Positions 14,353 to 37,419 of a stretch of DNA of 37,419 nt are shown here, in pieces; the stretch's first letter is position 1; each line of letters begins with the position of its first letter. The stretch is from a virus, in IMG/VR virus record IMGVR_UViG_3300005531_000020, positions 1 to 37,419 of that record; one strand, given 5' to 3'. Under the pieces are notes generated by a model. That model had not been told where the DNA came from. It was given only the letters and a program-made list of their open reading frames with translations, and searched no databases. Position numbers and translations under genes: made by a program.

Positions 14353-14355
14353 GGG

Positions 14356-15867
14356 CTAAGCGGTGCCCACCACCGGATCGACATAGGCGCCATTGAGCGC
14401 AGAGCACATCTCGGCGGTCGAGGAAAGTTCGATCACCATATCGCGGGCGAGACCGCCTGCGCGCCAGCGCATGACGCGGCGATAGCGCCCGCTGGAAATG
14501 CCCGCCTTGAGCCGGTTGTTGCCGAACTTGTTGCCGCCGTCACGCGAGAGCCGCAGCGACACCGTGGGCGCCGGAATGCCAGTGACGGGGCCAAAACCCG
14601 ACGAAAACCCGGCGCTCCATGGCCCGACGAACTGCCCATTCTCTCCCGTTCCCGGATGCGTTCCCGTCTCCACATCGGCGATGATCGCCGGATAACTGAT
14701 CCGCTTCATCTCGTCGAGCGAATGCGGAAACGACCTGATCCACGGAATCGGCGCACCGTTATCCGTGAAAGCATTCGGATCGATGGCGTAGAGATTGCCA
14801 TTGGCGAAATCGAGCGCGACATTCTTGCCGTAGGCGAAGGCGCAGAACGTATTGCGCGCTCGATGCGGCACCCCGTTCGGGTCGAACCAGTTGTCCTCGT
14901 GCCACTGCTCCGTTGCCTGGTCGAATCCCCACGTCTTGTCGGCGGTCGGAAAGTGCAATTTGTAGAACGAGTGACCCTCTGTCTGGTAGACAGCGCCGAT
15001 CGCATCGTCGATCCGAGCGTATTTCCTGAACTCGGCCTCGATCGCATGCGTCGAGATGCGCTGAGCTACGTTTTGATTTCCGGCCCGCATCACCATACGA
15101 TCGCCTTCAGGCGATTGCGAGAGCCAATAAACGCTCGTGTCCATCTTCGCGGGCGAATACTTCGCGGCACAGCCCTGCTCGATGATGACGCCGGGGAGAA
15201 TCTGAAACGGAAACGGCACGGTCCCCGAATTGAACCATACCTCGCTTTTCTTCGGACCGAAGATATAGACCTCTCGTTCAACCGTGACGATGCGCAGGAT
15301 GTTGTCGGGCCATGCGGTTTTTTTTCCGAGATAGAGCGCATTGAATGCGACTTGCTGCGCGAGCGTCGAGCCCCACGTATTGGTTCCGGGAATATTATAA
15401 ACGAGAAAACCGTCGAGGAAGTCGACGGCATCTGCTCCGACGAAATTAGGATCGCCGATCTGCGCAAATTGTGCCGCACCGCGCCCCGGCAATGCGATCG
15501 TATAGCCCTGCGAACTTCCGTCAACCACCATCACGCTCGTGCCGTTGTCGGCCATATAGACAGGGGACGGCCCTTGCGTCTGCAGGGCTCCGAGGAGCGT
15601 GAAAACCCAATCCGGCGATATGTAGTAGAGGTTTTGCCCGATGACCGCGTAGAGATCGCCATTGGTCGCGCCATAGAGGCCACGGCCCGGAGCGGGTGCG
15701 GGAGCCACAGCAAGGAGAGACAGCCCCGGACGCGGATAGTGCGTAACTGGCGCCGCCGGCTTGATGTTGGCCGGGTTCATTTCCGGATATAGATTGATGC
15801 ACCTCTGCGCCGAGGCGATATAGCTTTCGGCCGAGTAGGCGCCGCTTGTCAGCGGGATGGCAACCAT
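14356..15867 (-). CDS. Packaged-DNA stabilization / tail hub protein, P22 gp10-like
   Basis: A 503-aa protein opening with the characteristic start of the P22 gp10 family: IPLTSGAYSAESYIASAQRC, then NLYPE and PRPGLSLLA. Repeated beta strands follow (GRGLYGATNGDLYAVIGQNL), giving a beta-propeller-like body, and a C-terminal section with VSLRLSRDGGNKFG. In P22 gp10 joins gp4 at the portal and carries the tailspikes, closing the head after packaging. Length is close to the family's (about 470). Order after the gp4-like gene fits. It ends in TAG. Confidence 0.82.
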   Translation of the reverse strand: MVAIPLTSGAYSAESYIASAQRCINLYPEMNPANIKPAAPVTHYPRPGLSLLAVAPAPAPGRGLYGATNGDLYAVIGQNLYYISPDWVFTLLGALQTQGPSPVYMADNGTSVMVVDGSSQGYTIALPGRGAAQFAQIGDPNFVGADAVDFLDGFLVYNIPGTNTWGSTLAQQVAFNALYLGKKTAWPDNILRIVTVEREVYIFGPKKSEVWFNSGTVPFPFQILPGVIIEQGCAAKYSPAKMDTSVYWLSQSPEGDRMVMRAGNQNVAQRISTHAIEAEFRKYARIDDAIGAVYQTEGHSFYKLHFPTADKTWGFDQATEQWHEDNWFDPNGVPHRARNTFCAFAYGKNVALDFANGNLYAIDPNAFTDNGAPIPWIRSFPHSLDEMKRISYPAIIADVETGTHPGTGENGQFVGPWSAGFSSGFGPVTGIPAPTVSLRLSRDGGNKFGNNRLKAGISSGRYRRVMRWRAGGLARDMVIELSSTAEMCSALNGAYVDPVVGTA

Positions 15868-21538: not shown

Positions 21539-21798
21539 GACGCGCCGCTCCAGTAAAGATGCCACGGGCTGAGATGCACTCTCCGTGCCGCATGCTCGGC
21601 TTCGGCAACGCGCTCGACCAACGCCATGCGGCGCGCGATCGACTCGGCAAGCTCGGTGCGTGCCGCGAGAAGCCCGCGCCCGGCCGCTTCAAGCTCGTCG
21701 GCGGCTCGCGTGATCAGCAGCCGATCTGCCGACGGCAGGCTCTTGGCGTCGGTTGCGAGCACCCGCAATTCATCGGCGGTCTCGACTGCGGCGATCAT
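21526..21798 (-). CDS. Small coiled-coil protein, unknown
   Basis: A 90-aa, Ala/Glu/Arg-rich protein that is almost all helix (SADRLLITRAADELEAAGRG; ELAESIARRMALVERVAEAE), ending SPWHLYWSGASWRS. Its ATG overlaps the phosphatase stop (ATGA). The composition suggests an oligomerising helical bundle. No family was recognised. Confidence 0.6.
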   Translation of the reverse strand: MIAAVETADELRVLATDAKSLPSADRLLITRAADELEAAGRGLLAARTELAESIARRMALVERVAEAEHAARRVHLSPWHLYWSGASWRS

Positions 21799-22487
21799 AC
21801 GTGCACGCCCGCGAAAGGATCATGGTCGACTGGTACGAGCTGCGCGCCTCGCCCGGTTAGAGCCTTGAGGTTTACCACCATCGTCCGAAAACTAGCCGGC
21901 GGTTCGCCGTGCGTGAACATCACGTTGGGGTCGATCTCGAGGTCGGGGCTCTGACCCGCCTTCTCCCATGCGGCGAGAAGGCGGTCGACCCGGTGATGGG
22001 TGACGAGCGCAAGCGAGGCATTGCCGGCGATCTGCAGCGCCTGGCGCACGCCCGTGAAGACCCGCTCCTTGAACGTATTGAACGCCTCCCCGCCCGGGAT
22101 CGGCTCGTCGGGATCGCGGCAGACGAAGTCGCGCAGCTTCGGCGTGACGACGTCGGATTCGCGGCCCGTGAAGTGCCCGACGTTCCATGGCCGCAGTGCC
22201 GGCGACGGGATCGAGGTCGCGCCCGTGGTGCGTGAAACGGCTTGTGCGGTCTTTGCCGCCCGCGATAGATCGGAATGCACGAGCACCTGCAGGCCGCTGT
22301 CCGCGAGCTTCTCGGCGGTCGCCTTGATCTCCTGCTCGCCCTTGGGCGAGAGCGGCACGTCGCGCCAGCCGCGGATGCGATCCTTGCCGCCGCTGCCCGC
22401 ATTGAGCGCGGTCGAGCCATGGCGGATGATCATGATGTCCTTCTTCTCGCCGAAGGGGTCATGGTCGATGCGCATGAGGCTGATCAT
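21795..22487 (-). CDS. Histidine phosphatase (phosphoglycerate-mutase-like) with DHDPF motifs at both ends
   Basis: About 230 aa. The histidine-phosphatase core begins at IMIIRHGSTALNAG (RHG at about residues 22-24, phospho-accepting His), continues RIRGWRDVPLSPKGEQEI and HSDLSRAAKTAQAV, and has the second catalytic His in LVTHHRVDR. Substrate unknown. The peptide IDHDPFGE lies just before the core and VDHDPFAG at the end; the neighbouring polyvalent protein ends with VDHDPFQE. The start is uncertain (22487 or 22475; weak ribosome sites). Its place between portal and scaffold genes hints at a virion-linked enzyme. Confidence 0.75.
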   Translation of the reverse strand: MISLMRIDHDPFGEKKDIMIIRHGSTALNAGSGGKDRIRGWRDVPLSPKGEQEIKATAEKLADSGLQVLVHSDLSRAAKTAQAVSRTTGATSIPSPALRPWNVGHFTGRESDVVTPKLRDFVCRDPDEPIPGGEAFNTFKERVFTGVRQALQIAGNASLALVTHHRVDRLLAAWEKAGQSPDLEIDPNVMFTHGEPPASFRTMVVNLKALTGRGAQLVPVDHDPFAGVHV

Positions 22488-22506
22488 TGTGCAGCCGGGG
22501 GGCGCC

Positions 22507-22635
22507 TTAGCGCTTTTTCCCAGATTTCTTGCTGTCGCCCGCCTTCTTTGGCGAGTAGCCCGAAGATGATCGGATGGGATGGAATTTGCCTCCCTCTTCA
22601 AATCCCTTGAGTTCCTTTTTCGACTTCTTCGCCAT
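22507..22635 (-). CDS. 42-aa lysine-rich basic peptide
   Basis: Starts MAKKSKKELKGFEEGG and ends KKAGDSKKSGKKR, with about a third lysine or arginine. AAGGAG lies nine bases before the ATG. It sits between the polyvalent protein and the phosphatase. The charge suggests binding to DNA, RNA or an acidic partner inside the head. Not recognised. Confidence 0.6.
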   Translation of the reverse strand: MAKKSKKELKGFEEGGKFHPIRSSSGYSPKKAGDSKKSGKKR

Positions 22636-22639
22636 GACT

Positions 22640-23899
22640 TCAGTCTCCTTGCTCCTGGAACGGATCGTGGTCGACCGGAGCGAGCAGTTGCGCGCCAACT
22701 GGCATCATCACCAGCCCGGCAAGCCCGGCGAGCAGATTTCGGCTTGTTTTCAGCTCCGGATCGAAAGCCGCGGACGGGCTGCGAATTTGGTTGGGATCGC
22801 GCACGACGATAACCGGCTCTGGTTTTTGACCGCCCGGTCGGGTATAATTCTTGACCATCACAGCATCGTGGCCGCGATCCCATGCGTCCTTCAACCTCGC
22901 CTGAATTTCCGAGTCCTGCAGCCCCTGAGCATCGACAACTGCCGGCCGCTCAGTCCGATGCCATAGCTGTGGATTACCCGCCGTTCCCAGATCGCCCCAT
23001 ATGCCGTGCCCTCCCGGCAATCCCGGCGCTGTGGCCGCGATATCTGGACCTGTCGGCGTCCCCGAGCGCTGCTGTATCTGGCGCGCGAGAGATGCCTGCC
23101 CAGCCGCATCGTTCGTCGCCCACTCGGTGAACGGCGCAACCTGCTTGGTGTTTTCGGAGGCGAGTCCGCGCGTGGCGCCGAACGCGCCGCTCGGTGTCCC
23201 CTGCTTCGCCCGCGCCGCGATGTCGGCGGCCTCCCACCGGCTCACGAAACGCCCCGTATTGGTCACGAACCCATCGAGAATCGGACCTTGGCGCATTTCG
23301 TCGAGGGGCATCTTTTCAATGCGCTCGGCGGCCATCATCGCGTCCATATGGGACGGGCCGGTGTAGATGCGGCCGTTGACGTTGAGGGCCGCGGTCGCGA
23401 TCTTCTCGTCGGCCGGCGCCACGGCGAAGCCGAGCGGCATGTCGCTGCGAAAACCCATCGCTTGCGCGCGCGCCAATCGTGCGGCCTCATCCATTGGCAA
23501 CGCTGCCGCTTGTGCAACCCGCGCGCTCCGCACCGCGCCGGAGCCGAGCGTTGCCGCCCCGCGCGCACCGGCAAGCGGCGAGGCGGTCGCCAGCCCCGCG
23601 ATATTCGTCGCGTCCTCGATCGCCTGAAGTCTGAACCTACCCGTCGCCGGGTCGATCGGATTGGTGTTTGCGACATCCCAGATGGCGTTCCCGAGCGAAG
23701 TAGCGGCATCGTTCAGTAGGAGCGCTGGTGCCCCCGCGAGTCCGGTCGCGCCCCACGCGAGCGGCCCCGGTTCCGCACTCCACTGCGGCGAGATTGCCGG
23801 CCCCGTGTCGATACCGCGCTGCGCGAGCCAATAGGGCGAGCGCAGTGCAGGCGCCGCAATCAGCGGATTATCATCCGAAGCCTGCAGCGCGTTTGCCAT
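22640..23899 (-). CDS. Polyvalent / ADP-ribosyltransferase-like head-region protein
   Basis: A 419-aa protein. The N-terminal half is Ala/Gly/Pro-rich; residues about 172-235 carry ALNVNGRIYTGPSHMDAMMA and GFVTNTGRFVSRWEAADIA, a module known from large phage polyvalent proteins. The last 100 residues (GHDAVMVKNYTR; VIVVRDPNQIRSPSAAFDP) resemble the end of phage-borne ADP-ribosyltransferase-type domains. A hydrophobic stretch follows (LLAGLAGLVMMPVGAQLL) and the tail VDHDPFQEQGD. Its ATG overlaps the portal stop. Possibly injected with DNA to modify the host; inference only. Confidence 0.55.
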   Translation of the reverse strand: MANALQASDDNPLIAAPALRSPYWLAQRGIDTGPAISPQWSAEPGPLAWGATGLAGAPALLLNDAATSLGNAIWDVANTNPIDPATGRFRLQAIEDATNIAGLATASPLAGARGAATLGSGAVRSARVAQAAALPMDEAARLARAQAMGFRSDMPLGFAVAPADEKIATAALNVNGRIYTGPSHMDAMMAAERIEKMPLDEMRQGPILDGFVTNTGRFVSRWEAADIAARAKQGTPSGAFGATRGLASENTKQVAPFTEWATNDAAGQASLARQIQQRSGTPTGPDIAATAPGLPGGHGIWGDLGTAGNPQLWHRTERPAVVDAQGLQDSEIQARLKDAWDRGHDAVMVKNYTRPGGQKPEPVIVVRDPNQIRSPSAAFDPELKTSRNLLAGLAGLVMMPVGAQLLAPVDHDPFQEQGD

Positions 23900-28751: not shown

Positions 28752-30124
28752 CACATGCCGGCCCAGGCGGTGAACTTGCCCGAGCCGCCGTTGTCGAAGA
28801 CCGTAGCGCTCAGGCCAACCGCTGCGGTCGTGCCGCCCGAGGTGCACTGCGCCATCATGTGCGTCATGCCGGCAACAGCCACGATCGTGCCCGCCGTCGC
28901 ATCGGCCGCGAGCGCCGTGCACGCCGTCAGCGCGGTTTCCGCCGTGGTCGTCGGCACCGCAAAGCCCGCCGCGAACGTGAAGGTCGGGGCGAGATACATC
29001 GGCTGCGGGAACACGATATCCCACTGGCATGCGGTGTTCGCGGTCGTGAAGTGGCAGGTACCGCGCGGCGTCGGCCCGGCCGTCTCCGAGATCGCATAGA
29101 AGAACTGCTGGGCACGGTTGAGGTCATCCTGCTTGCGGATCACCTCGAAGTTCGAGGCTGCGGCCCCGATCTCGAGCTGCGCGCCGGTCCAGGCGAAGCC
29201 GTCAGTCGCACCCGCACCAGTCGCGGTTGGGGTGAAGCAGATCGCCACGCCCACCTCAGTCGCGGTCGACGGGATCGACGCCGAAACCGAGTAGCGCGTG
29301 AACGTGGTCGTGATCGTGAGTGCCTGGTTGACCGCAGTTGCGATACCGGTCCAAGCAGGCGTGATCGCCGGTGATGCCGTCCACGAGCCGAAGCCCTGAT
29401 CCGTGCCGGTCCCGGTATAGACCACCATATTCACGATGTTGTTGTTGTCGGCCGCAAGGCCCGCAAGCGCGTCGAGCCACGCGCTGAACGTGACGGTCTG
29501 GCCGGCGAGCTGCGTCGCGATCGCCGACGGGATCTCCTGATGCACGCACACCGGCTGGGTGAGCGCGCCCGAGGTCCGAAACACCTTCATCACGTTGGTG
29601 AAGCCGGTCGGCGGGGACGGGGACGAGGTGACGATCGCACTGCGGCCCGCGCCCGAACCGACGTTGGTGTCGAGCGCCCAGCGATCCGCCGACATATTGG
29701 TCACGGCGAGCGCCGACGTGGTGGCGCCTGTCACTGTGGCGGTGCCGTTGATCGCCGTGATGTTGAGCGCAGCGTTGTCGAGGTAGTTGCGCGGCGTGCC
29801 GCCGTAGTTGCCCAAGAGCGTGACCGGGATGCGAACGGTCTGCGGCGAGGCACCGCCGCCGAGCTGCGTATCGGCCGGGATCATTTCCTGGCCGGTCAGG
29901 AACGACGGTCCTGCCGGAACGGTCTGGCCACAGATCGAGCCGGTCGAGCCCTGACCCTGGCCGGTGATGCCGCCGAGGCCACCGGTGCCGGTGACGGTCG
30001 AGGCACAGAACGACGCCGAGCCGACGATCGGCAGGGTCGAGAACAGCCCGGCCGCGATGGCGGACGGGATACCGATGGCGGCGACGAGGACGGCCGCAAG
30101 CATCACGCGGGGCGTGATCTTCAT
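28751..30124 (-). CDS. Secreted tail-fibre-like / carbohydrate-binding-like protein
   Basis: A 457-aa protein. The chosen ATG (30124) has GGAG seven bases upstream and opens a signal peptide (MKITPRVMLAAVLVAAIGIP ... AIAA). The C-terminal half has the jelly-roll pattern common in phage fibre and appendage proteins: VTFSAWLDALAG, then FAWTGAQLEIGAAASNFEVI and LNRAQQFFYA, where relatives typically read QLEVG..A..FE...LxxCQRYY. Eight cysteines in the mature chain. Probably a virion appendage or adhesin; encoded unusually between terminase subunits. Confidence 0.62.
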   Translation of the reverse strand: MKITPRVMLAAVLVAAIGIPSAIAAGLFSTLPIVGSASFCASTVTGTGGLGGITGQGQGSTGSICGQTVPAGPSFLTGQEMIPADTQLGGGASPQTVRIPVTLLGNYGGTPRNYLDNAALNITAINGTATVTGATTSALAVTNMSADRWALDTNVGSGAGRSAIVTSSPSPPTGFTNVMKVFRTSGALTQPVCVHQEIPSAIATQLAGQTVTFSAWLDALAGLAADNNNIVNMVVYTGTGTDQGFGSWTASPAITPAWTGIATAVNQALTITTTFTRYSVSASIPSTATEVGVAICFTPTATGAGATDGFAWTGAQLEIGAAASNFEVIRKQDDLNRAQQFFYAISETAGPTPRGTCHFTTANTACQWDIVFPQPMYLAPTFTFAAGFAVPTTTAETALTACTALAADATAGTIVAVAGMTHMMAQCTSGGTTAAVGLSATVFDNGGSGKFTAWAGM

Positions 30125-30193
30125 GGGTTTCTCCATTGGATTTGGATTACCGGCGCGGCCGGCGCTGTTTGGCGGGAGGGTGACGGCACCCGC

Positions 30194-30388
30194 CTATGCC
30201 GAACCTTGTCGCTGCTTAAGCAGACTCACCCACTGGGTGATACGGACAAGGGCCCTGAACAGAAATTCCCTTTGCTCGTGCTCAGGTAGCTCGAGAAATT
30301 CCAGTAGTGCGACCTCGTGCTCGGCTGCTGTCGTCTTACGCAGGTCCGCAAGCAGGTCGGGAACTGGGCGCTCCTTCATTTTTTTCAC
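30194..30388 (-). CDS. 64-aa helical protein, unknown
   Basis: Charged helices (PVPDLLADLRKTTAAEHEVA; ELPEHEQREFLFRALVRITQ) with the end LLKQRQGSA. GTG at 30388 overlaps the previous stop as GTGA; the alternative ATG at 30379 lacks a ribosome site. Not recognised. Confidence 0.55.
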   Translation of the reverse strand: MKKMKERPVPDLLADLRKTTAAEHEVALLEFLELPEHEQREFLFRALVRITQWVSLLKQRQGSA

Positions 30389-30603
30389 GAATACCGATAG
30401 GCCTGCTCGGTGAAATACTTCTTGCAGTAGCCAAAGCTGCGGATAGGGTCCTCGACCCGAACGCAGTGCGGCTCTTTCCGATGCTGCCCCGGCTGGAACC
30501 AGCGGCATGAAATGCACATTTCGCCCTTCGCGCCGGGCTGTTCGGAATACTCGGCTTCCTCGTGGGTTGCCTTCTTGAAGGTCTGTTCACCCGGCTTTGA
30601 CAT
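30385..30603 (-). CDS. Small four-cysteine protein, HiPIP-like pattern
   Basis: A 72-aa protein with four cysteines spaced Cys-x2-Cys-x13-Cys-x12-Cys (CISCRWF ... HCVRV ... GYCKKYF). The spacing and the aromatic residues near each Cys recall high-potential iron-sulfur proteins, though a zinc knuckle is equally possible. It overlaps the end of the small terminase gene by 17 bases. No signal peptide. Role unknown. Confidence 0.6.
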   Translation of the reverse strand: MSKPGEQTFKKATHEEAEYSEQPGAKGEMCISCRWFQPGQHRKEPHCVRVEDPIRSFGYCKKYFTEQAYRYS

Positions 30604-31039
30604 CGGCGAACCTCACGATTTCGATTTTCAGAGGCCCGCCGCCCTCGCCGGCATGGCGCAAATCGACTTTGTCGCCATACTTCTTAGGCGCCAGCTTGGA
30701 CATCAGCCACTTTCGGGTGTCCACCCGAAGCCGAGAGCGGTTGATGTGCTCGTTGTCGACGCGCTCGTTGCCATTTGCATCCGTAAACTTGTCGGACGCT
30801 GCATCGTCCGCGATCTCGATGATCTCCTCAGACCAGACCTCCATCTGGAGTTCACGCGCTCTCGCGTATTGGTCCGAGAAGTCCTTATGTTTCAACACCC
30901 AAAGGTGCACGGTCGATCGCGTCGGCATACCGTCTCCCTCGCAAATGCTGCGGAGAGACTCGCCATTTGAGATACGAGCACAGATCAGGTCTGCCGTCTT
31001 TTGCGAGAAAGTGGATGGGCGACCACGGGGTTTTGACAT
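30587..31039 (-). CDS. Terminase small subunit
   Basis: A 150-aa protein. The chosen ATG (31039) has CGAGG five bases upstream. N-terminal helix-turn-helix (ADLICARISNGESLRSICEG; MPTRSTVHLWVLKHKDF), an oligomerising helix region (ARARELQMEVWSEEIIEIAD), then RVDTRKWLMSKLAPKKYGDK and a C-terminal tail. This is the layout of Sf6/P22-type small terminases that recognise the packaging site. It is the first late gene, preceded by a structured untranslated region. Confidence 0.85.
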   Translation of the reverse strand: MSKPRGRPSTFSQKTADLICARISNGESLRSICEGDGMPTRSTVHLWVLKHKDFSDQYARARELQMEVWSEEIIEIADDAASDKFTDANGNERVDNEHINRSRLRVDTRKWLMSKLAPKKYGDKVDLRHAGEGGGPLKIEIVRFADVKAG

Positions 31040-31061
31040 GGCGCCTCGTGAGGGAAAGGAG

Positions 31062-31106
31062 GCTGGCGGGACCCGTAGCGGGAGGGGACCGACAAGTCCC
31101 GCCAGC
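31062..31106 (-). other. 11-bp perfect hairpin in the terS leader
   Basis: GCTGGCGGGAC pairs with GTCCCGCCAGC (11 bp, 23-base loop) ending 23 bases before the terS ATG. No T-run follows it on the minus strand, so it is a stable leader hairpin rather than a classic terminator. It could control terS translation, be an RNase site, or be part of the packaging site. Confidence 0.6.
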
Positions 31107-31158
31107 AAAAGCGCTCTGTCCCTTTGGGTGTGGGGCGGGGGGTGAAGGGACGGCGCTT
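31107..31158 (-). terminator. Terminator-like hairpin between the tRNA operon and late genes
   Basis: On the minus strand AAGCGC/GCGCTT (6 bp) plus GTCCCTT/AAGGGAC (7 bp) with a small internal bulge and 20-base loop, followed by TTTTG. The stem is strong but only four Ts follow. It would stop transcripts coming from the tRNA genes before terS. Confidence 0.5.
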
Positions 31159-31168
31159 AGGGTGATTT

Positions 31169-31192
31169 GCGGGGGCCTTTTGTGCTCCCCGC
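31169..31192 (-). other. GC-rich hairpin downstream of the tRNAs
   Basis: GCGGGG/CCCCGC, 6 bp with a 12-base loop, no T-run. It is part of the roughly 200-base structured stretch between the tRNA genes and terS. Confidence 0.35.
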
Positions 31193-31238
31193 GCGGGTCA
31201 CTGCCGGATCGCGTCCGGTTCCGTGCCCGCCTGCAGTT

Positions 31239-31313
31239 TGGTTGCAGAGGCCCGAATCGAACGGGCTACCTGCTGGTTATGAGCCAGCCGAGCTGCCAAT
31301 GCTCCACTCTGCT
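31239..31313 (-). tRNA. tRNA with CAT anticodon (Met, or Ile2), CCA encoded
   Basis: A full cloverleaf on the minus strand: acceptor AGCAGAG/CTCTGCA, D arm GAGC-ATTGGCA-GCTC, anticodon arm GCTGG-CTCATAA-CCAGC, 5-base variable loop, T arm GCCCG-TTCGATT-CGGGC, discriminator A and encoded CCA (31239-31241). Position 1:72 is an A:A mismatch and 11:24 is A:U, both initiator-like traits; the anticodon stem has two of the three G:C pairs typical of initiators. CAT can also be an Ile2 anticodon if lysidine-modified. Confidence 0.85.
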
Positions 31314-31318
31314 GAAAT

Positions 31319-31394
31319 TGGTCAGGGCGGCAGGCCTCGAACCTGCAACCCCCGGATTCCAAGTCCGGTACTCTGCCAACTGAGCTACGCCCTG
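31319..31394 (-). tRNA. tRNA-Pro (TGG), CCA encoded
   Basis: A cloverleaf on the minus strand: acceptor CAGGGCG/CGCCCTG with C1:G72 as in bacterial tRNA-Pro, D arm GCTC-AGTTGGCA-GAGT, anticodon arm CCGGA-CTTGGAA-TCCGG (anticodon TGG), T arm GCAGG-TTCGAGG-CCTGC, discriminator A, encoded CCA (31319-31321). It lies seven bases after the stop of the upstream ORF and five bases before the CAT tRNA, so the two are co-transcribed. Confidence 0.92.
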
Positions 31395-31401
31395 ATGCGC
31401 C

Positions 31402-31551
31402 CTATTGCGCTGGCGTCGGCTCGATGGGTGGCGGAAAAACGCGGTCAAATTCCTCTTGAATGCGCCTTTCAACCTCGGGCGAATTGCGTAGGTTGTCCCG
31501 CATCCACTTGCGGGCCGCCTTCATGTCCTCTTCTCGGATAAAGGCGTTCAT
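31402..31551 (-). CDS. Small helical protein before the tRNA genes
   Basis: From ATG 31551 a 49-aa charged helical peptide (FIREEDMKAARKWMRDNLRN; ERRIQEEFDRVFPPPIEPTP). The frame stays open upstream to a TTG at 31725 (107 aa; includes VDPRAPWQSAAPAIQSPGYS), so the true start may be earlier. Neither start has a clear ribosome site. If the short form is right, 31552-31733 holds no other gene I can see. Not recognised. Confidence 0.5.
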   Translation of the reverse strand: MNAFIREEDMKAARKWMRDNLRNSPEVERRIQEEFDRVFPPPIEPTPAQ

Positions 31552-31733
31552 CTTGAACTCTGAATTTTGGGCGTATTTTCCAGTCGGACGCGGCGGTATC
31601 GCAGCGTGCGAGTAGCCCGGACTTTGTATCGCCGGAGCGGCCGATTGCCAGGGTGCCCGCGGGTCAACCCCAAGAATGGCGAAGCGGCTGGCGACACAAG
31701 ATATTGATTTTCGGAACAGAAGCAAGGGGAATT

Positions 31734-31979
31734 TTATCCCTCGATCCGCACCTTAACCGGAGCTTCAATGAAGCCAAGCAGCCGAAGCGCCGTCGCGGAA
31801 ATGTTTTCCAGCCTAGCATAGGCGGGAACATCCGCCTCTTGCGCGATTTCCACTATATCATTCAATCCCTTAGTGACGCGCGCGATTACTTGCTCGTGGC
31901 GAATGTCGCGCGCCGTCTTAGCTCGCGTGAATTGCGATAGCTCAAGAAAAAGCCGATCAATCGTCTCTGTGTCAGTCAT
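31734..31979 (-). CDS. 81-aa protein of unknown function
   Basis: Starts MTDTETIDRLFLELSQFTRA, helical, with RLENISATALRLLGFIEAPV near the end. Its ATG overlaps the stop of the upstream interrupted ORF (ATGA) and GGA lies just ahead, supporting the start at 31979 rather than the longer open frame. No family was recognised. Confidence 0.6.
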   Translation of the reverse strand: MTDTETIDRLFLELSQFTRAKTARDIRHEQVIARVTKGLNDIVEIAQEADVPAYARLENISATALRLLGFIEAPVKVRIEG

Positions 31980-32239
31980 TCCTTGATTGCCCCATGCTCT
32001 TGCAGCGCAGCAATGACTTCGCTCGCGTAAGGATCGCAGCCGCAACACGGCCAATTGCATTCCTGCGGCGGATCTCTCTTTTCCCATGGCCGCGCCGCGC
32101 ACGTCCAATCGAGGTGGACGGCCTAAAGCGCCGCATCCGCCATGGTCAACCACGGCCAAGCCTCGGGATTAGCGAGGCCGGGCATGGCGTTCTGCAGGGC
32201 TTCCGCTATCGCCAATCGTCGCGCGATCATGCCCGTCAT
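31976..32239 (-). pseudogene. Small gene split by an in-frame TAG (38 + 48 residues)
   Basis: The ATG at 32239 overlaps the upstream HTH gene stop (ATGA). It gives a 38-aa peptide (MTGMIARRLAIAEALQNAMP ... TMADAAL) ending at TAG (32123-32125). The same frame then stays open for 48 codons with protein-like, Cys/Trp-rich sequence (HLDWTCAARPWEKRDPP; ECNWPCCGCDPYASEV) and stops exactly at the next gene's ATGA. The second part has no ATG, GTG or TTG. Three readings: a recent nonsense mutation, stop readthrough, or a base error. Confidence 0.6.
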
Positions 32240-32445
32240 TTCTTGGCCCTTTTGTATGTAACGATGACCTTCTTTTCGCGCCGCAAACCAAATGCCTCGC
32301 AAATTGCCGGGCCGGGCTCTCGCCGCCCAAGGGTCACGTCGCTGACGTAGGCGGCCGATAGGTCATGCCGGCGCGCCCATTCGCGGACGCTGCCGGCTTC
32401 CTCACACGCCGCTTTGAGCATAGCCCTTACCTCGTCGGCGGTCAC
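32236..32445 (-). CDS. Small helix-turn-helix regulator (Xre-like)
   Basis: A 69-aa protein with one HTH: KAACEEAGSVREWARRHDLS followed by AAYVSDVTLGRREPGPAIC, the Xre/Cro-type layout with a recognition helix around AAYVSDVTLGR. Basic C-terminal end (REKKVIVTYKRAKK). GTG start overlapping the previous stop (GTGA). It could bind the paired inverted repeats at 32987-33016 that overlap this operon's promoter. Confidence 0.7.
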   Translation of the reverse strand: MTADEVRAMLKAACEEAGSVREWARRHDLSAAYVSDVTLGRREPGPAICEAFGLRREKKVIVTYKRAKK

Positions 32446-32759
32446 ACTGCGGCTCCGTCGAGGGCCGCGCGGGCTTGATCGCGGAACTCGCTGAGCGTCG
32501 CACGGAACAACCTAAGATCGGAACTAACCAGTAGCCGATCATCAAACGCGGCTACGTTGCGCGCCAAATCAACCAATTCCGCATCCTTCTCATTCACTCG
32601 CAGAAGCGACTCGCAAACCGTCCGCGCGGCCTCGATAGTGCGCGATCGGTGCCGGTAATCATTGGCACTCATGTCCTGTGCGTGGTGGTGCAGCATATTG
32701 TCCGCAGTGGCGGACACGTTGTCGAGCATTTCGAGCAGTTCGTCATAGGTTGGCTTCAT
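32442..32759 (-). CDS. Small helical protein, unknown
   Basis: 105 aa from ATG 32759, which has GGAG six bases upstream (an ATG two codons earlier touches the ribosome site). Helical and charged: KPTYDELLEMLDNVSATADN, a His-rich spot (LHHHAQDMSA), then RLLVSSDLRLFRATLSEFRD. Its stop overlaps the HTH gene's GTG. Not recognised. Confidence 0.6.
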   Translation of the reverse strand: MKPTYDELLEMLDNVSATADNMLHHHAQDMSANDYRHRSRTIEAARTVCESLLRVNEKDAELVDLARNVAAFDDRLLVSSDLRLFRATLSEFRDQARAALDGAAV

Positions 32760-32771
32760 GGACATCTCCCT

Positions 32772-32948
32772 TCACGCTTGGTATTGGCGGATCATCGCGC
32801 CGAGATTGTCGGCATGCGCTTCAAGAAAAGCGAGATAATCGGCCTTCTGGAACTTCGGGAGATAGGACCGCTCTTTGGCGATCAGGGCGTCGGTCTCGGC
32901 GAGAGCCTGAACCGTGCGGCGGAATTGATCTTGATTGGTGATCTGCAT
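32772..32948 (-). CDS. 58-aa small protein, first gene after the internal promoter
   Basis: Starts MQITNQDQFRRTVQALAETD with AGGAG six bases upstream; an ATG two codons earlier (32954) lies on the ribosome site. It is all helix, with LPKFQKADYLAFLEAHADNL. The pattern is like the N-terminal helices of HigA-type antitoxins, but no HTH follows. It is expressed from the promoter at 32973-33001. Confidence 0.6.
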   Translation of the reverse strand: MQITNQDQFRRTVQALAETDALIAKERSYLPKFQKADYLAFLEAHADNLGAMIRQYQA

Positions 32949-32972
32949 GGCCATCTCCTATCTGATGACCGC

Positions 32973-33001
32973 AATGTAAGCATGTTTTGCGTACAGCGCA
33001 A
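32973..33001 (-). promoter_or_regulatory. Candidate minus-strand promoter for the small-gene/tRNA operon
   Basis: On the minus strand TTGCGC (33001-32996), a 17-base spacer and TACATT (32978-32973). This short intergenic stretch is less GC-rich than its surroundings and precedes a strong AGGAG ribosome site. Both boxes match the consensus at about four of six positions. Confidence 0.5.
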
Positions 33002-33016
33002 GTAACGAATTGTTAC
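32987..33016. promoter_or_regulatory. Two abutting 15-bp inverted repeats (operator pair)
   Basis: TTGCG-TACAG-CGCAA (32987-33001) is followed without a gap by GTAAC-GAATT-GTTAC (33002-33016). Each has perfect 5-bp arms. The first covers the -35 box of the candidate promoter. This is a typical repressor or activator arrangement, perhaps for the HTH protein at 32236-32445. Confidence 0.6.
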
Positions 33017-33018
33017 AG

Positions 33019-33123
33019 TCACCACGGCAACGGCGGCTTGGCGTTTCTGGCGAGGGCTGCGCATATGCTAAAACCAATGACCATGCCCAGAATGATGGCC
33101 ATAAGCGCGATGAGCCAAATCAC
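33019..33123 (-). CDS. 34-aa membrane microprotein
   Basis: GTG start overlapping the previous stop as GTGA. One hydrophobic span (IWLIALMAIILGMVIGFSIC) and a short basic/Pro tail (ALARNAKPPLPW). It ends three bases before the inverted-repeat pair. It could be an exclusion or membrane-signalling peptide; not recognised. Confidence 0.55.
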   Translation of the reverse strand: MIWLIALMAIILGMVIGFSICAALARNAKPPLPW

Positions 33124-33314
33124 GGTTGATCTCCCATTGCGTCACGAAATGCCTGAAAAGCGCGGGCGATGTCGGAACGGCGCCGCGGATTGCGTGTCGG
33201 CGTCCGCATGACATTCGCTTGCGCAAGGTCAAAGACCTCTTGCAATGCCCAACGCGGAACCGGGATCAGCTTTTGCTGGTCTTCGCGGTCGGCCAGTTCA
33301 TAAATGTCGGTCAT
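33120..33314 (-). CDS. 64-aa small protein, unknown
   Basis: Starts MTDIYELADREDQQKLIPVP and continues with helices (WALQEVFDLAQANVM) and a basic part (RNPRRRSDIARAFQAFRDAM). Coupled on both sides: ATGA with the NusG-like gene and GTGA with the membrane microprotein. Not recognised. Confidence 0.6.
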   Translation of the reverse strand: MTDIYELADREDQQKLIPVPRWALQEVFDLAQANVMRTPTRNPRRRSDIARAFQAFRDAMGDQP

Positions 33315-33898
33315 ATTTTCCGCACCTGATGCGCGTCCAGCTCAATCGTGCCCAATTCCGCGAGTATGAGCTGAACACGCTTTTTCTTGCTGGCCGATTT
33401 GACGCGGGCGATTAGGCCGGAGAACCGATCGTCAAGGATCTCCACCCGATCCCCGGCCTTGAACCCCTCCCCGCCGAATAGGCCGGCTTCCTCAGCACGC
33501 CTGAGGGCCTGGATAAGCCCGTCCGGCACCCGCTGCGGAACATCCATCGCGCCTAGAAGCGAATGGACGCCCTCCGTATTCAGGATGGCGGACCGATCCC
33601 GCGCCCGGCAGGGTTCAAACCGCACGAACACATAGGGCCCCAGTACCGGATGCTCCCGCCGCAAGTGCTTCCCCCGCTTGTATTCCTTTTTGACCTCGAT
33701 CGGAACGTAGGTCTCGAAACTGGCCTCGTTGATTCGACGCTCTACCGGGAAGAAGAAATTACCCTCCCGGTCTTTTGACCGCTGCATTTCCAAGGGCGAC
33801 ACGAATGCCACAAACCAAGCGAGCCCCCTCGGGAAGCTCGCCGGCACGATCGGGGTGATCAGTTTGGTCATCTCGGTGGAGGTGAGTGGGGCGAGCAT
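33311..33898 (-). CDS. NusG-family transcription elongation/antitermination protein
   Basis: A 195-aa protein. The NGN-type N-terminal domain (GLAWFVAFVSPLEMQRSKDR; SFETYVPIEVKKEYKRGKHL; HPVLGPYVFVRFEP) is followed by a KOW domain (FKAGDRVEILDDRFSGLIAR and VQLILAELGTIELD). ATG at 33898 has GGAG five bases upstream. NusG paralogues bind RNA polymerase; phage and RfaH-like versions let it read through terminators. It could carry transcription past the terminator at 31107-31158 into the late genes. Confidence 0.82.
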   Translation of the reverse strand: MLAPLTSTEMTKLITPIVPASFPRGLAWFVAFVSPLEMQRSKDREGNFFFPVERRINEASFETYVPIEVKKEYKRGKHLRREHPVLGPYVFVRFEPCRARDRSAILNTEGVHSLLGAMDVPQRVPDGLIQALRRAEEAGLFGGEGFKAGDRVEILDDRFSGLIARVKSASKKKRVQLILAELGTIELDAHQVRKI

Positions 33899-33911
33899 GG
33901 GGGCTCCATGA

Positions 33912-34214
33912 TCAAATTTCAGCTTGTGAGGCCAGCCGCAGCCGAGGCTTGGGGGGATCAAGAATGCTCTTGTCGATGGTCAGCCATTCCGGCCATTGGC
34001 AAGGCGCTGTCCACCTCGCATTCGGCTCTTTGCGCATGCGATGAAAGGTTTGCGGCGTCCAGCCCAGATCGCGAAAGTACGCTTCCCAAGCTTTGTGCTC
34101 CTCGCTGTTGGGCCTCACCTCGAACCAGCCCTCGTTCAGTTTCCCGAAGTCGTAGGCCGCCCGCATCCACGGGTGCGCCTTGCTCCAGTCGAATTCCTGC
34201 TGCTTGCTGCTCAT
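33912..34214 (-). CDS. 100-aa Trp-rich protein, unknown
   Basis: Starts MSSKQQEFDWSKAHPWMRAA and has seven tryptophans (EAYFRDLGWTPQTFHRMRKE; QWPEWLTIDKSILDPPKP). The sequence is clearly protein-like. It overlaps the end of the upstream replication-type ORF by 257 bases in another frame. No family was recognised. Confidence 0.65.
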   Translation of the reverse strand: MSSKQQEFDWSKAHPWMRAAYDFGKLNEGWFEVRPNSEEHKAWEAYFRDLGWTPQTFHRMRKEPNARWTAPCQWPEWLTIDKSILDPPKPRLRLASQAEI

Positions 34215-35004
34215 TGGCTAAAATCTTTCGATATTTTTCGCGAAGTTCGTCCGATCCCGGCTTGCCGGGTGGTGGTCCCTTGGGGGGCGCCTGCACGGGA
34301 TAGTCTTTCCACCGCTGTTGGGAGAGCCACGTCGCGGCCTGCGCCACGAATTCGGTTCCAATCTTGGCGTTCTCCCGCTCGGCGACGCACCAGCGTTCCG
34401 CACCAGCGATGATCGCCGCAGCAGTTTCTCGGTCGATGTCGTATTTCCGACCCGTCGCGACAGCCGTCAGGAAGCGCTTCAGCGCCAGCGTCTTTGGGTT
34501 GGCACCCTTCCGATCCGGCTTCTTCCTCCAAAATTCATCGAAAAGCTGTTCGCATTCGGTGCGCGTCGCGTTGGCGACCGCACGAGAGTCGGTACTAGGT
34601 ACTAGGTCCTTGGTACTAGGTACTAGGTCCGTCGCCGAAGGCTCGCGAGCATTCGCGAGCGATCGCGATCCCTCGACGAATGGGGGGATTTTAGACTTCG
34701 ATGGCCTGTCAATCTTCTGGTGTTTCAACCAATTAACGATTTCGAGGTATGTTGATCCTTCGACCTCGTAAATCCGGATGCACTCTTTGACCTCAAGCTC
34801 CTCAAGCCAGTCGTCGATAAGGTCGCGCGCATCATCATCGTATGGGTATAGAAGGCTCGCGAGCATTCGCGAGGCCGCGCGAGCCCTCCCGTCATCGTCC
34901 GCGATGGTCCAAAGCTGGATGAAAAGCAATCGCGCGTCACGCGACAGTTTGCCGACGGTTTCGGATTGGGGAAATTCCGGCTTGATGGTCCGAATTCGGC
35001 TCAT
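33958..35004 (-). CDS. Phage replication-initiator-like protein with suspicious 3' extension
   Basis: Up to 348 aa. The N-terminal winged-helix-type domain (MSRIRTIKPEFPQSETVGKL; ARLLFIQLWTIADDDGRARA; VEGSTYLEIVNWLKHQKIDR) is typical of phage replication proteins in the O/DnaD-like group. The middle has the DnaD-like part CEQLFDEFWRKKPDRKGANP. The last about 85 residues overlap the clearly real 100-aa gene out of frame and look like shadow sequence, so the true end may be near 34214 and the original stop lost. ATG overlaps the HNH stop (ATGA). Confidence 0.72.
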   Translation of the reverse strand: MSRIRTIKPEFPQSETVGKLSRDARLLFIQLWTIADDDGRARAASRMLASLLYPYDDDARDLIDDWLEELEVKECIRIYEVEGSTYLEIVNWLKHQKIDRPSKSKIPPFVEGSRSLANAREPSATDLVPSTKDLVPSTDSRAVANATRTECEQLFDEFWRKKPDRKGANPKTLALKRFLTAVATGRKYDIDRETAAAIIAGAERWCVAERENAKIGTEFVAQAATWLSQQRWKDYPVQAPPKGPPPGKPGSDELREKYRKILANEQQAAGIRLEQGAPVDAGGLRLRETERGLVRGEAQQRGAQSLGSVLSRSGLDAANLSSHAQRAECEVDSALPMAGMADHRQEHS

Positions 35005-35540
35005 TCGGAGTCCTTCAGCTTTTTCCAGCAGACGCCGCAAAAATATTTGAACATCCGCAAGTCCGAATAATAGATTTTGGCTCGCGCGATCTCCGCGGCG
35101 TCTATGACCTCATGAAGAGGCAGTCTCTTGTTGAAGGTCTTGATTGATTGGAGATAGTCGCGACGGGTGCCTTTTTCCGAACAGCCGGGGAAAAGCACCT
35201 CCGCCACCACCCACATATCGGTTTCAATGCGGTCGACTTGTTCCTGCACGATCTCGCGGTAGCCGGCGAGCTGGGCCTCTCGCTCCTGAATCTCGGCCGC
35301 CTTCTCGGCCAACGATTTCGGCACGACGGAAAGCGAGATTCCGGCTTTCCCGCGATTGCAGTTGAAACAAGCGGTTACGAGGTTCCCCTCGCCGTTCTCG
35401 CCGCCCTCGCAAACAGGCGTGATATGGTCCACCTCAAGCAGCACGTTGGGCGGTGTGGCCCCACAATATTGACAGGTAAAGCCATCGCGCTTGAATACCT
35501 CAAAGCGCGCTTTCTTCGAAATTGGCTTCCGACCGGTCAT
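35001..35540 (-). CDS. HNH endonuclease
   Basis: A 179-aa protein. Classic HNH core: CQYC (Cys23, Cys26), VDHITPVCEGG (His39) and NLVTACFNCNRGKAG (Asn53, Cys58, Cys61, Asn62) with structural zinc. A helical C-terminal region follows (EIQEREAQLAGYREIVQEQV), with an extra Cys pair near the end (FCGVCW). It is coupled by ATGA on both sides between the CtrA-like regulator and the replication protein. Probably a DNA nuclease for replication, recombination or host DNA. Confidence 0.85.
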   Translation of the reverse strand: MTGRKPISKKARFEVFKRDGFTCQYCGATPPNVLLEVDHITPVCEGGENGEGNLVTACFNCNRGKAGISLSVVPKSLAEKAAEIQEREAQLAGYREIVQEQVDRIETDMWVVAEVLFPGCSEKGTRRDYLQSIKTFNKRLPLHEVIDAAEIARAKIYYSDLRMFKYFCGVCWKKLKDSE

Positions 35541-35881
35541 GCGGCATTCTCCAGCATGGCCTTTAGCCGCTTGCGGTCGGCCTCGGGAATGCGATATCCG
35601 ACGTTGTGGATATTCTCGATATTGGCTCCAAACATCTTGAGACGCTTGCGAATCTTCGACACATGCACGTCGATGATCTTGTCGCAAACGTTACTCTCGC
35701 CGCCCCACACTGCGGTGAAAATGAAATCCCGCGTCGCAATTTCGCGGTTGAGCAGGATACCCAATATCTGGGCTCTTCTCTTGCTGAACCCGAGCGGGCG
35801 ATGATCCTCGAATGCGAGGCGCATGCCGATGAGCGCTTCAAGCTCCTCCACTCGATCCCTGAGATTCTGCAGCTCGCTCAT
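35537..35881 (-). CDS. CtrA/OmpR-type winged-helix DNA-binding protein without receiver domain
   Basis: A 114-aa protein. A short coiled coil (residues 1-20, SELQNLRDRVEELEALIGM) replaces the receiver domain; residues about 30-98 are an OmpR/PhoB-class winged helix. The recognition helix KIIDVHVSKIRKRL closely resembles CtrA's (KIIDVFICKLRKKL, from memory), and the wing ends HNVGYRI. Without a receiver it should bind DNA independently of phosphorylation. The ATG overlaps the GcrA-like gene's stop. Confidence 0.8.
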   Translation of the reverse strand: MSELQNLRDRVEELEALIGMRLAFEDHRPLGFSKRRAQILGILLNREIATRDFIFTAVWGGESNVCDKIIDVHVSKIRKRLKMFGANIENIHNVGYRIPEADRKRLKAMLENAA

Positions 35882-36360
35882 GCGGGGCGGCGCTCCGCGC
35901 GCATCTGGTAGGGTGTCCAGCAAAGTCGGGTATGCCTGAGGCAGTATGGACTACCCGCTTCCTCGAGCTTCTGTGCCCCACAAAACCGGAAGCTATTAAG
36001 ATCGGACGGCTCCCCAATCGGGTAGCGGCATTGGTGCGGTTGTACGTCCATGAATGAAACGGCGCAGTCCGATTGATCCGCTGGCTGCTCGTTTGATTCG
36101 CAAGCGAACATGCGGCGCCGCGCATTCTTCAATCTTTGCGAACGCTGCACGCCGACCGCTCCTCCAGACGCTCGACGTGGCCGAGGAACCTTGTTTCCCT
36201 TCGGGACGGTGCCGGATAGCCCCAGGCGATTGAGCTTACCCATGACCGCGTTGCGGGTGATGCCAAGCTCGGCACCGATCTGCGAGGATGAATAGCCGGC
36301 CGCCCACATGCGCGAGGCCGTCGCGATCTTCGCCTCGTCCCATCCGCATCCAGGATTCAT
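35878..36360 (-). CDS. GcrA-like cell-cycle regulator
   Basis: A 160-aa protein. The N-terminal HTH (residues about 6-50: WDEAKIATASRMWAAGYSSS; IGAELGITRNAVMGKLNRLG) is the GcrA signature. A basic linker follows, then a C-terminal Cys-containing motif (HQCRYPIGEP; FCGAQKLEEAGSPYCLRH) as in GcrA proteins. GcrA binds sigma-70 holoenzyme and activates promoters with CcrM-methylated GANTC. ATG 36360 has GAGGG seven bases upstream. Confidence 0.88.
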   Translation of the reverse strand: MNPGCGWDEAKIATASRMWAAGYSSSQIGAELGITRNAVMGKLNRLGLSGTVPKGNKVPRPRRASGGAVGVQRSQRLKNARRRMFACESNEQPADQSDCAVSFMDVQPHQCRYPIGEPSDLNSFRFCGAQKLEEAGSPYCLRHTRLCWTPYQMRAERRPA

Positions 36361-36409
36361 GCTGCGGCCCTCGTCCAACGTTAGATGTGATCTTGCGGGC
36401 GCCGCATTA

Positions 36410-36904
36410 TCAGCACCCGCAGGCCTGCATGAGGCTCGTCATCTCAGCCGCGAATCCTGGGCTGCCATTCATGCGCGTAACTATGCAGCGCACTCCGTAG
36501 GCAACGGTTGTGTGATCGCGATTTCCGATAAAATGGCCGGTCTGGGTGTGGGAATATCCGAAACCGCGAACGCAAATGTACATAACGATCTGGCGCGGCC
36601 GGACGAGGTGGCGCGCAGTGCTCTCGCCGATAATCTCCCGCCAGCTTAGCCCAAAATGTTTGGAGACAATTTCGCAGACGCGCCGGCCGCTCGGCCGCCA
36701 AGCGATCGAAATGTCATTCGCCCAGGCACCTAGGAGCTGCGCATATGCGTCCTCGCCGATCAGAGATGCCGGGATTGGCGTGATTGTGGGCGCCCCAGGC
36801 GCCACTACGAGCCGTCGATTTTGGGCGGCGCGTTCGATCCGTTCCCGCGCAGCCCGATAATTCTCCCGCAGTTCAGCACCAGTCATCGGCGTATGAACAA
36901 GCAC
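36410..36904 (-). CDS. DnaA domain IV-like DNA-binding protein (no AAA+ domain)
   Basis: A 164-aa protein. Residues about 75-145 match DnaA domain IV, the DnaA-box-binding module: VCEIVSKHFGLSWREIIGES, VRPRQIVMYICVRGFGYS and the signature GNRDHTTV (127-134). The N-terminal part is a charged helix with no ATPase motifs, so it cannot act as a full initiator. It may occupy DnaA boxes in host or phage DNA. The start is GTG at 36904 behind GAGGGGAGGGG; ATG at 36886 is the alternative. Confidence 0.82.
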   Translation of the reverse strand: MLVHTPMTGAELRENYRAARERIERAAQNRRLVVAPGAPTITPIPASLIGEDAYAQLLGAWANDISIAWRPSGRRVCEIVSKHFGLSWREIIGESTARHLVRPRQIVMYICVRGFGYSHTQTGHFIGNRDHTTVAYGVRCIVTRMNGSPGFAAEMTSLMQACGC

Positions 36905-36923
36905 TATCCCCTCCCCTCTTGCG

Positions 36924-37043
36924 TTATTCTGTCGCGGAACGAGAAACGAGTTCCCGCATTTGGAATTGCGGGAGGGTGTAAGCCTTTGTTCCCTCGTCAC
37001 AAAAGCGACTTGCTATGTTGTCGGTTTGTTCGACCATCATCAT
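36924..37043 (-). CDS. 39-aa microprotein, early operon
   Basis: Opens with three consecutive ATG codons overlapping the upstream stop (TGATG). The peptide (MMMVEQTDNIASRFCDEGTK, then LPQFQMRELVSRSATE) has balanced, protein-like composition and fills the gap before the DnaA-like gene. Not recognised; it could be a small regulator. Confidence 0.5.
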   Translation of the reverse strand: MMMVEQTDNIASRFCDEGTKAYTLPQFQMRELVSRSATE

Positions 37044-37393
37044 CACGCCTCGTTGAGCGTTTCCCGGATCGAGGCCATCTGACTTTCAATCGCAGCCAGA
37101 TCGTCCGTGCGATGGCTGCCATTAGCCTGCCGATAGAGATGGATTTCATGCTCGAGCTGCCGCATTTGCTGTTCTAGGACTCGAACTAATTCCCCCCGAA
37201 TAGCGTTCATGAGCCAAGCCGGAATGATCTTGCGGCGCTGGCGACGGATGTTGCGTAACGTGCCGGCCCCGGTTCGCAGGCGACGCGCAATCGAGGTCCG
37301 CGCCTCTGCAACCCGAACGCCTAGACGCCTGGCCTCGCTATCTTCGAGGCGACTGAGCATCCCGGCCGCAATCGTCGAATCTGCGCCCATCAT
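37043..37393 (-). CDS. Small basic DNA-binding-type protein, first early gene
   Basis: A 116-aa protein. The basic, HTH-like first half (EARRLGVRVAEARTSIARRL; TLRNIRRQRRKIIPAWLMNA) is followed by a coiled-coil second half (LVRVLEQQMRQLEHEIHLYR; AAIESQMASIRETLNEA). AGGGG lies immediately before the paired ATGs at 37393. The layout suggests a dimeric DNA-binding protein heading the early operon. Family not named with certainty. Confidence 0.6.
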   Translation of the reverse strand: MMGADSTIAAGMLSRLEDSEARRLGVRVAEARTSIARRLRTGAGTLRNIRRQRRKIIPAWLMNAIRGELVRVLEQQMRQLEHEIHLYRQANGSHRTDDLAAIESQMASIRETLNEA

Positions 37394-37419
37394 CCCCTGC
37401 CCGCTTTGGGCCTCACTGA

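Follow-up and report, generated by a model that had tools for sequence, protein, structure and literature searches.

DnaA domain IV, GcrA and receiver-less winged-helix genes lie side by side ahead of the replication gene of a tailed phage

Why does a virus carry, side by side, genes that resemble DNA-binding parts of the alphaproteobacterial cell-cycle regulators, and what might such a set control? We addressed this question for the viral record IMGVR_UViG_3300005531_000020, the whole of which (37,419 bases) was analysed and is called the window here. The original prediction had placed genes related to DnaA domain IV (DnaA-IV), GcrA and CtrA next to each other at 35537-36904. These coordinates were confirmed, on the minus strand, and Pfam searches with Bac_DnaA_C, GcrA and Trans_reg_C all gave matches above cut-off (62.1, 95.9 and 45.8 bits, respectively). 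The best reading, which we favour tentatively, is a phage cassette that would recruit the host sigma70 RNA polymerase and so take over transcription. The three regulator genes are:

36410..36904, minus strand: stand-alone DnaA domain IV protein (Pfam Bac_DnaA_C; fold of 1j1v/3pvp)
35878..36360, minus strand: GcrA-family protein of 160 amino acids (aa) (Pfam GcrA; alignments with 7ye1, 5yiu and 5yix)
35537..35881, minus strand: receiver-less OmpR-type winged-helix protein of 114 aa (Trans_reg_C; model, family alignment and trees)

The Bac_DnaA_C match of the first protein (cut-off 31.5 bits) covers residues 70-134 only, and Pfam found neither an AAA+ ATPase nor any other DnaA domain, as expected for a DnaA-like protein that has lost its ATPase. 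Against the NCBIfam model of full DnaA it scored 60.7 bits (cut-off 343.9), which places it outside the full initiators. Translation may start at a GTG (36904) behind a purine-rich stretch or at an ATG (36886; 158 aa). An AlphaFold model built with 12 window and contig sequences had a mean predicted local distance difference test score (pLDDT) of 85.7, and its best matches in the PDB were DnaA domain IV structures bound to boxes, with target template modelling (TM) scores of 0.86-0.91 against 1j1v and 3pvp. The motifs RPRQ and RDHTTV are retained in the window protein and the LPEIG-type turn of host DnaA is altered; the DH of the box-reading DHT motif is retained in 23 of the 27 aligned phage DnaA-IV rows. 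The roles that we assign to these residues are partly drawn from PMC9638019. With Mesorhizobium DnaA, the window protein shares 33% identity over 83 residues (51.6 bits).

By the title of Haakonsen 2015, cited in PMC6630229, GcrA itself serves sigma70 as a cofactor where promoters are methylated. The window protein matched PF07750 (cut-off 26.9 bits) over residues 7-155 of 160 and profile positions 3-152 of 155, and aligned with Caulobacter GcrA (7ye1) over residues 6-155, with 5yiu and 5yix covering the two ends. Both the N-terminal DNA-binding part and the C-terminal sigma70-interacting part are kept in the alignment. Since this GcrA is full length, only two of the three regulators are stripped, and the idea of a trio of stripped versions had to be given up. 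With the NCBIfam equivalog model of host GcrA (NF050816; cut-off 280) it scored 86.7 bits and so falls outside that class; it matches PHROG 16311 and three phage records. From the two kept ends, it is predicted to bind sigma70 and to recognise methylated GANTC. Phage-encoded GcrA proteins are found in phiCbK-like and other alphaproteobacterial phages, as the original prediction had allowed. They are in print for phiCbK (PMC3556154), Agrobacterium phage Atu_ph08 (PMC6630229), a brucellaphage (PMC11836647), phiLM21-like prophages, in a table that also has one DnaA (PMC12429752), and a coral-associated phage (PMC11309003). The available sections of these papers make no mention of adjoining DnaA-IV and winged-helix genes.

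The third protein matched Trans_reg_C (cut-off 26.2 bits), and its structural model (mean pLDDT 78.0) has an N-terminal helix at residues 2-24 (23 residues), which carries LRDRVEELE, followed by the OmpR-type domain. The first 32 fold neighbours of the model were response-regulator-type DNA-binding domains, the best with an E value of 0.0026 and none below 0.001. No receiver domain was matched in the 114 aa by Pfam or NCBIfam, in line with the prediction of a CtrA-like protein without its receiver, and the protein therefore has no phosphorylation site. With NCBIfam, the PhoB model NF053854 ranked first (40.4 bits) and CtrA 14th of 22 (16.6 bits). In two rhizobial genomes, the NCBIfam-named CtrA proteins matched the window protein weakly (19.4 and 18.8 bits), and its four best places were stand-alone members of its own family. 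Scans with the winged helix confirmed two viral and three bacterial contigs, the bacterial relatives lying in Mesorhizobium, Sinorhizobium and Shinella genomes. The winged-helix domain is shared with CtrA. An LRDRVEELE-type helix is common to most relatives in the family alignment, and several with this coiled coil carry KIVDVFVCKIRKKL and then a TVWGQGY-type stretch, close to host CtrA. CtrA was the best NCBIfam model for three of eight relatives (L143, L138 and L144; for L143, 48.9 bits versus 22 for the next model), and the other five better fit PhoB, TctD or MtrA models. Other relatives resemble a second regulator of the two host genomes (L160 and L171), which we take to be FtcR/Rem; NCBIfam gave only a sub-cut-off CtrA match for L160 and nothing at 1e-20 for L171. 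PHROGs already has clusters of receiver-less winged-helix proteins, listed as a transcriptional regulator without a name: the window protein matches PHROG 31800 and 731 weakly (28.9 and 23.3 bits), relatives match 31800 with 57 and 49 bits, and these two families and PHROG 16311 are annotated only as 'transcriptional regulator'. Among the matches listed in open-licence papers, none concerned a phage receiver-less CtrA-type family.

In a first tree, made without ph_L161_1870, host CtrA fell inside the phage rows with the window protein near it (forks 86/83 and 87/82); a phage-only clade was rejected in the approximately unbiased test (p-AU 0.0216), whereas phage plus CtrA was not (0.31). For a second tree, five rows were added and ph_L144_7230 and L157rr were also removed for their long branches. 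Phage proteins, CtrA and the L160/L171 pair then lay on one side of a branch (75/89). A weak fork (60/78) put the window protein with other regulators, and its grouping with non-CtrA regulators was not rejected (p-AU 0.233). Because of this second tree, a firm claim that the window protein is CtrA was dropped. Judged by its sequence, it is a diverged, receiver-less member of a CtrA-leaning phage family and not clearly a CtrA descendant. Thus, the label 'CtrA-like' suits the family, in which CtrA is the best model for three relatives and joins the phage rows in the first tree, but not so well the window protein, given its PhoB ranking and the second tree.

Several further observations concern this family. 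In Shinella pollutisoli (L148/L153, L149 and L161), stand-alone winged-helix genes are found two by two next to each other; one gene of a pair has a CtrA-like stretch and the other a VVESHVSKLR- or TLESHISKLR-type stretch. A DUF6551 gene precedes the winged helix in Mesorhizobium (L146). In another phage, a 97-aa protein (L003 8861-9154), which matches the GcrA alignment weakly and resembles the GcrA C-terminal part, is encoded two genes ahead of a winged-helix gene.

The regulator genes lead a longer block, transcribed from the minus strand in the order DnaA-IV, GcrA, winged helix, HNH endonuclease, replication initiator and NusG/RfaH-like gene. ATGA overlaps link GcrA to the winged helix, the winged helix to HNH, and HNH to the replication initiator. 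Between the end of DnaA-IV (36410) and the GcrA ATG (36360) there is a gap of 49 nucleotides (nt), or 31 nt with an alternative TTG start for GcrA at 36378. Translational coupling, which had been proposed for all three regulators, is therefore supported for GcrA and the winged helix and not for DnaA-IV and GcrA. The following genes are:

35001..35540, minus strand: HNH endonuclease (Pfam HNH, 45.3 bits; PHROG 14314)
33958..35004, minus strand: phage replication initiation protein (PHROGs 16167 and 2149; no Pfam match)
33311..33898, minus strand: NusG/RfaH-like transcription antiterminator (Pfam NusG, 37.8 bits; PHROG 6386)
30587..31108, minus strand: terminase small subunit (PHROG 1482, E 4.5e-51; Pfam Sf6_terminase, 143.6 bits)

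The regulator and NusG/RfaH-like genes share one strand ahead of the terminase, the small subunit of which is the first structural or packaging gene found downstream of the regulator block. Terminase, portal, head and tail genes lie downstream, and the virus is therefore a tailed phage. On gene order alone, the three regulators would belong to an early class. An exact end repeat was looked for in the window and none was found.

Do the three genes travel together? When the window GcrA and DnaA-IV were each scanned singly against viral contigs, no relative was confirmed, which we attribute to the exact-pattern first step of these scans; a scan with a GcrA alignment confirmed 388 stretches, of which the best 80 were used. 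These contigs may be fragments, and look-alikes (L044/L047, L073/L074, L028/L033, L024/L029 and L060/L062) were counted separately. DnaA-IV was present in 20 of the 80 (Bac_DnaA_C E ≤ 0.001; 13/45 + 7/35), 17 of them above the curated cut-off, and Trans_reg_C in seven (7/45 + 0/35), six above cut-off. All three occurred in only three contigs (L028, L033 and L037, the first two alike), with DnaA-IV 11.5 to 12.8 kilobases (kb) from GcrA. Wherever GcrA and the winged helix were both present (7/7), they lay on the same strand within 3 kb. DnaA-IV lay on the GcrA strand within 4.5 kb in 11 of 20 contigs and at 7 kb in one more; in the other eight it was on the opposite strand, 5.7 to 16.4 kb distant. 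For L025, whose contig has four consecutive DnaA-IV-type matches (G014:17965-19626; three above cut-off), the first match was used for the distance.

Relatives of the window were also sought through its portal protein, for which three contigs had 58-59% identity. One of these, G084 (59.8 kb), has DnaA-IV and then GcrA in the same order as the window, with a 4-nt overlap. Next come a 106-aa gene, a ParB-like gene and, after one more frame, the same replication gene as in the window, the two products being 50% identical. The DnaA-IV/GcrA pair is kept in this relative, and the third gene differs. By eye, the 106-aa protein looked like a helix-turn-helix protein; this was rejected, as Pfam gave no match for it and PHROGs a single weak one, to a family of unknown function. 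The G084 DnaA-IV protein (L133 6818-7501) has a possible extra C-terminal helix-turn-helix (HTH_38, 24.9 bits; cut-off 27). The two other portal relatives (21 and 29 kb, perhaps fragments) had neither a DnaA-IV nor a GcrA match, and no winged-helix relative was found in the examined parts of the three contigs, which were not searched whole with Trans_reg_C.

A scan with the replication gene confirmed 139 loci, and 63 of the best 80 extended 3 kb or more upstream of it. In this upstream part and on the strand of the replication gene, DnaA-IV was present in 9/63, GcrA in 3/63 and the winged helix in 1/63; 52 had none of the three in the stretch examined, and the sole relative with both DnaA-IV and GcrA was G084. 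Whole contigs were searched for 50 of the 80 loci, mostly the longer ones and without L209 (= G084). Here DnaA-IV was found in nine, GcrA in five (three above cut-off) and the winged helix in three; DnaA-IV was paired with GcrA in two and with the winged helix in two, and all three were together in none. An ordered trio as a fixed unit is not borne out by these surveys: pairs recur, and across the 80 best GcrA contigs and the portal and replication-gene relatives the adjacent ordered trio was found in the window only. A loose link among the three genes is present.

Other phages share parts of the arrangement. In phage MW202785, GcrA is followed by a replisome organiser and an RfaH-type gene, with small frames between, and in a Sinorhizobium contig (L147) a NusG-like gene lies 5 kb beyond the winged helix. 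Bradyrhizobium phage ppBjS10J-1 and the uncultured phage MW202613 have DnaA-IV with small genes, as does the window, and in MW202613 DnaA-IV immediately precedes a replisome organiser gene; unlike the window, they have no Trans_reg_C match and are outside the three phage records that match the window GcrA. No paper on DnaA-IV, GcrA and a winged helix together was among the literature matches listed.

We next considered potential target sites. Neither TTATCCACA nor the full CtrA site TTAA-N7-TTAA occurs in the window, but fewer than one of each was expected, so their absence is weak evidence. TTWTNCACA is also absent from the window and was at expectation in 18 DnaA-IV phage sequences (5 versus 6.4), in which TTATCCACA occurred twice (0.5 expected), too few for a claim. 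GANTC occurs 85 times in the window versus 192 expected (standard deviation 13). It was depleted three-fold in the 18 DnaA-IV phage sequences (389 versus 1181 expected) and less so in 68 stretches without DnaA-IV (2443 versus 3301). We read this depletion as a probable sign of hosts with CcrM-type methylation. At 35-37.4 kb of the window there are 10 GANTC sites, versus 5.5 expected at the genome rate (p 0.054, not significant). No clear iterons were seen in the window, only scattered repeat pairs.

Some features of the window lie outside these questions. Two transfer RNA (tRNA) genes (Met-CAT and Pro-TGG; 31239-31394) stand directly ahead of the small terminase gene. A 100-aa frame (33912-34214), on the same strand as the replication gene, shares 257 nt with the end of that gene; within this overlap, the C terminus read for the replication protein may not be real. 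A histidine phosphatase domain (PF00300, 100 bits) is encoded at 21795-22883 amid structural genes, and a 636-aa open frame (13882-15792, plus strand), antisense to the head-closure gene, is probably a by-product of high G+C.

What could the block do? Known systems offer a likeness. Caulobacter GafY is a DnaA-IV protein that binds domains 3-4 of sigma70 (RpoD) and is proposed to recruit polymerase to a gene transfer agent promoter; it works with GafZ, for which an antiterminator role alongside NusA, NusG and NusE is put forward (PMC11150451). Rhodobacter GafA has a DnaA-like N-terminal part, and split GafA genes are described in a MucR-to-DUF6456/SufE arrangement (PMC9638019). A Shinella DnaA-IV protein sits in such a GafYZ-type locus, with MucR, DUF6456 and SufE neighbours. 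As in the window, a stand-alone or fused DnaA-IV of a phage-like element is combined in one programme with an antiterminator. In contrast to the Shinella protein, which has RDRTT, the window protein has RDHTTV, and it adjoins GcrA and a replication gene.

We therefore tentatively propose a transcription cassette just ahead of the replication gene. The order of the genes, their domains and the recurring pairs were observed directly, whereas, as with everything past domain assignment, we infer sigma binding, promoter targets, antitermination and timing. In the two proteins with the best precedents, the sigma-binding end of GcrA would bring sigma70 polymerase to GANTC-containing promoters, and DnaA-IV would recruit it in the manner of GafY. 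The winged helix would be a third DNA-binding protein, one that acts independently of signals, and polymerase may be helped through the long late operon by the NusG/RfaH-like protein. Phage promoters would be the main targets, with a possible side effect on host promoters. This proposal is favoured because the window GcrA keeps both functional ends, because stand-alone DnaA-IV proteins of phage-like elements are known promoter activators, and because the DnaA-IV, GcrA and NusG/RfaH-like genes lie in one block. It is also favoured by the RfaH/NusG-type genes that accompany regulators in MW202785 and L147, by the same-strand closeness of GcrA to the winged helix (7/7) and to DnaA-IV (11/20), and by the fact that G084 retains the DnaA-IV to GcrA order upstream of its version of the replication gene. 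Several results weigh against it. The window DnaA-IV scored only 26.6 bits with the Shinella protein, below its host DnaA score, and 16.4 bits with NF004687 (PRK06030.1-2), versus 111.9 for the Shinella protein, neither reaching the cut-off of 181 bits; the window protein was therefore rejected as a GafY. No DUF6456 (GafZ) partner was found among the 31 window proteins scanned with Pfam. GANTC was not enriched near gene starts (11/85, p 0.16, hand-picked gene list) or between genes (7/85, p 0.68), and both GANTC sites that precede the terminase gene fall within tRNA genes, so promoter-near GANTC was rejected as a sign of GcrA targets. Promoter-like sites at 30000-37419 numbered one, versus 2.6 expected. 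Finally, DnaA-IV upstream of the replication gene in 9/63 contigs would fit a replication role as well. The weakened likeness to GafY lowered our confidence in the proposal and slightly raised that in a control of phage replication and in a separate gain of the genes.

The original prediction is partly supported, in that a DnaA-IV protein without AAA+, a real GcrA and a winged helix without receiver adjoin each other; the host cell-cycle reset that it suggested is a possible role. DnaA-IV would occupy host DnaA boxes free of ATP control, the winged helix would act at CtrA-type sites without phosphorylation and GcrA would drive S-phase genes, keeping the infected cell in a state favourable to phage replication. 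We consider this doubtful, although the DH of the DHT motif is so widely retained and phiCbK GcrA has been proposed to act in a similar way (PMC3556154). As neither a canonical DnaA box nor a full CtrA site occurs in the window, canonical targets, if any, would be in the host; with less than one site expected by chance, however, this says little. Moreover, the winged helix is not clearly CtrA, the genes are not a fixed travelling trio, and GafY, formerly studied as HdaB for a part in replicating the chromosome, has been reinterpreted as activating particle genes (PMC9632790). Control of phages by host CtrA is in print (PMC9437464 and PMC10589892). A broader version, in which alphaproteobacterial phages would build an override aimed at host promoters and oriC from interchangeable parts (a DnaA free of ATP control, a CtrA-type DNA-binding protein not governed by phosphorylation and an intact GcrA), seems unlikely to us. 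Rather unlikely, too, is control of phage replication, in which DnaA-IV would mark the phage origin or its transcription and act with the neighbouring initiator, with timing set by GcrA and the winged helix. The same-strand DnaA-IV genes upstream of the replication gene (9/63, and in MW202613) and the two TTATCCACA sites agree with this, but TTWTNCACA shows no excess, clear iterons are lacking in the window and all three genes are missing from the upstream stretch examined in 52/63 relatives. Quite improbable, in our judgement, is that small DNA-binding genes were gained singly, as separate regulators, at a variable site and do not function together. The rarity of all three together (3/80, two alike), the different third gene of G084 and the mosaic counts in the 50 replication-gene contigs would be expected from such an assortment; the constant closeness of GcrA and the winged helix and the DnaA-IV to GcrA order kept in G084 would not.

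Phage GcrA proteins and DnaA-IV activators have so far been known singly. Their side-by-side presence with a winged helix from a receiver-less, partly CtrA-type family suggests that alphaproteobacterial phages repeatedly gather DNA-binding parts of the host cell-cycle circuit. The small operon can usefully be compared with the way in which GafYZ controls gene transfer agents, and offers a means to learn what such parts act on, be it the promoters of the phage, its replication or the cell cycle of the host.

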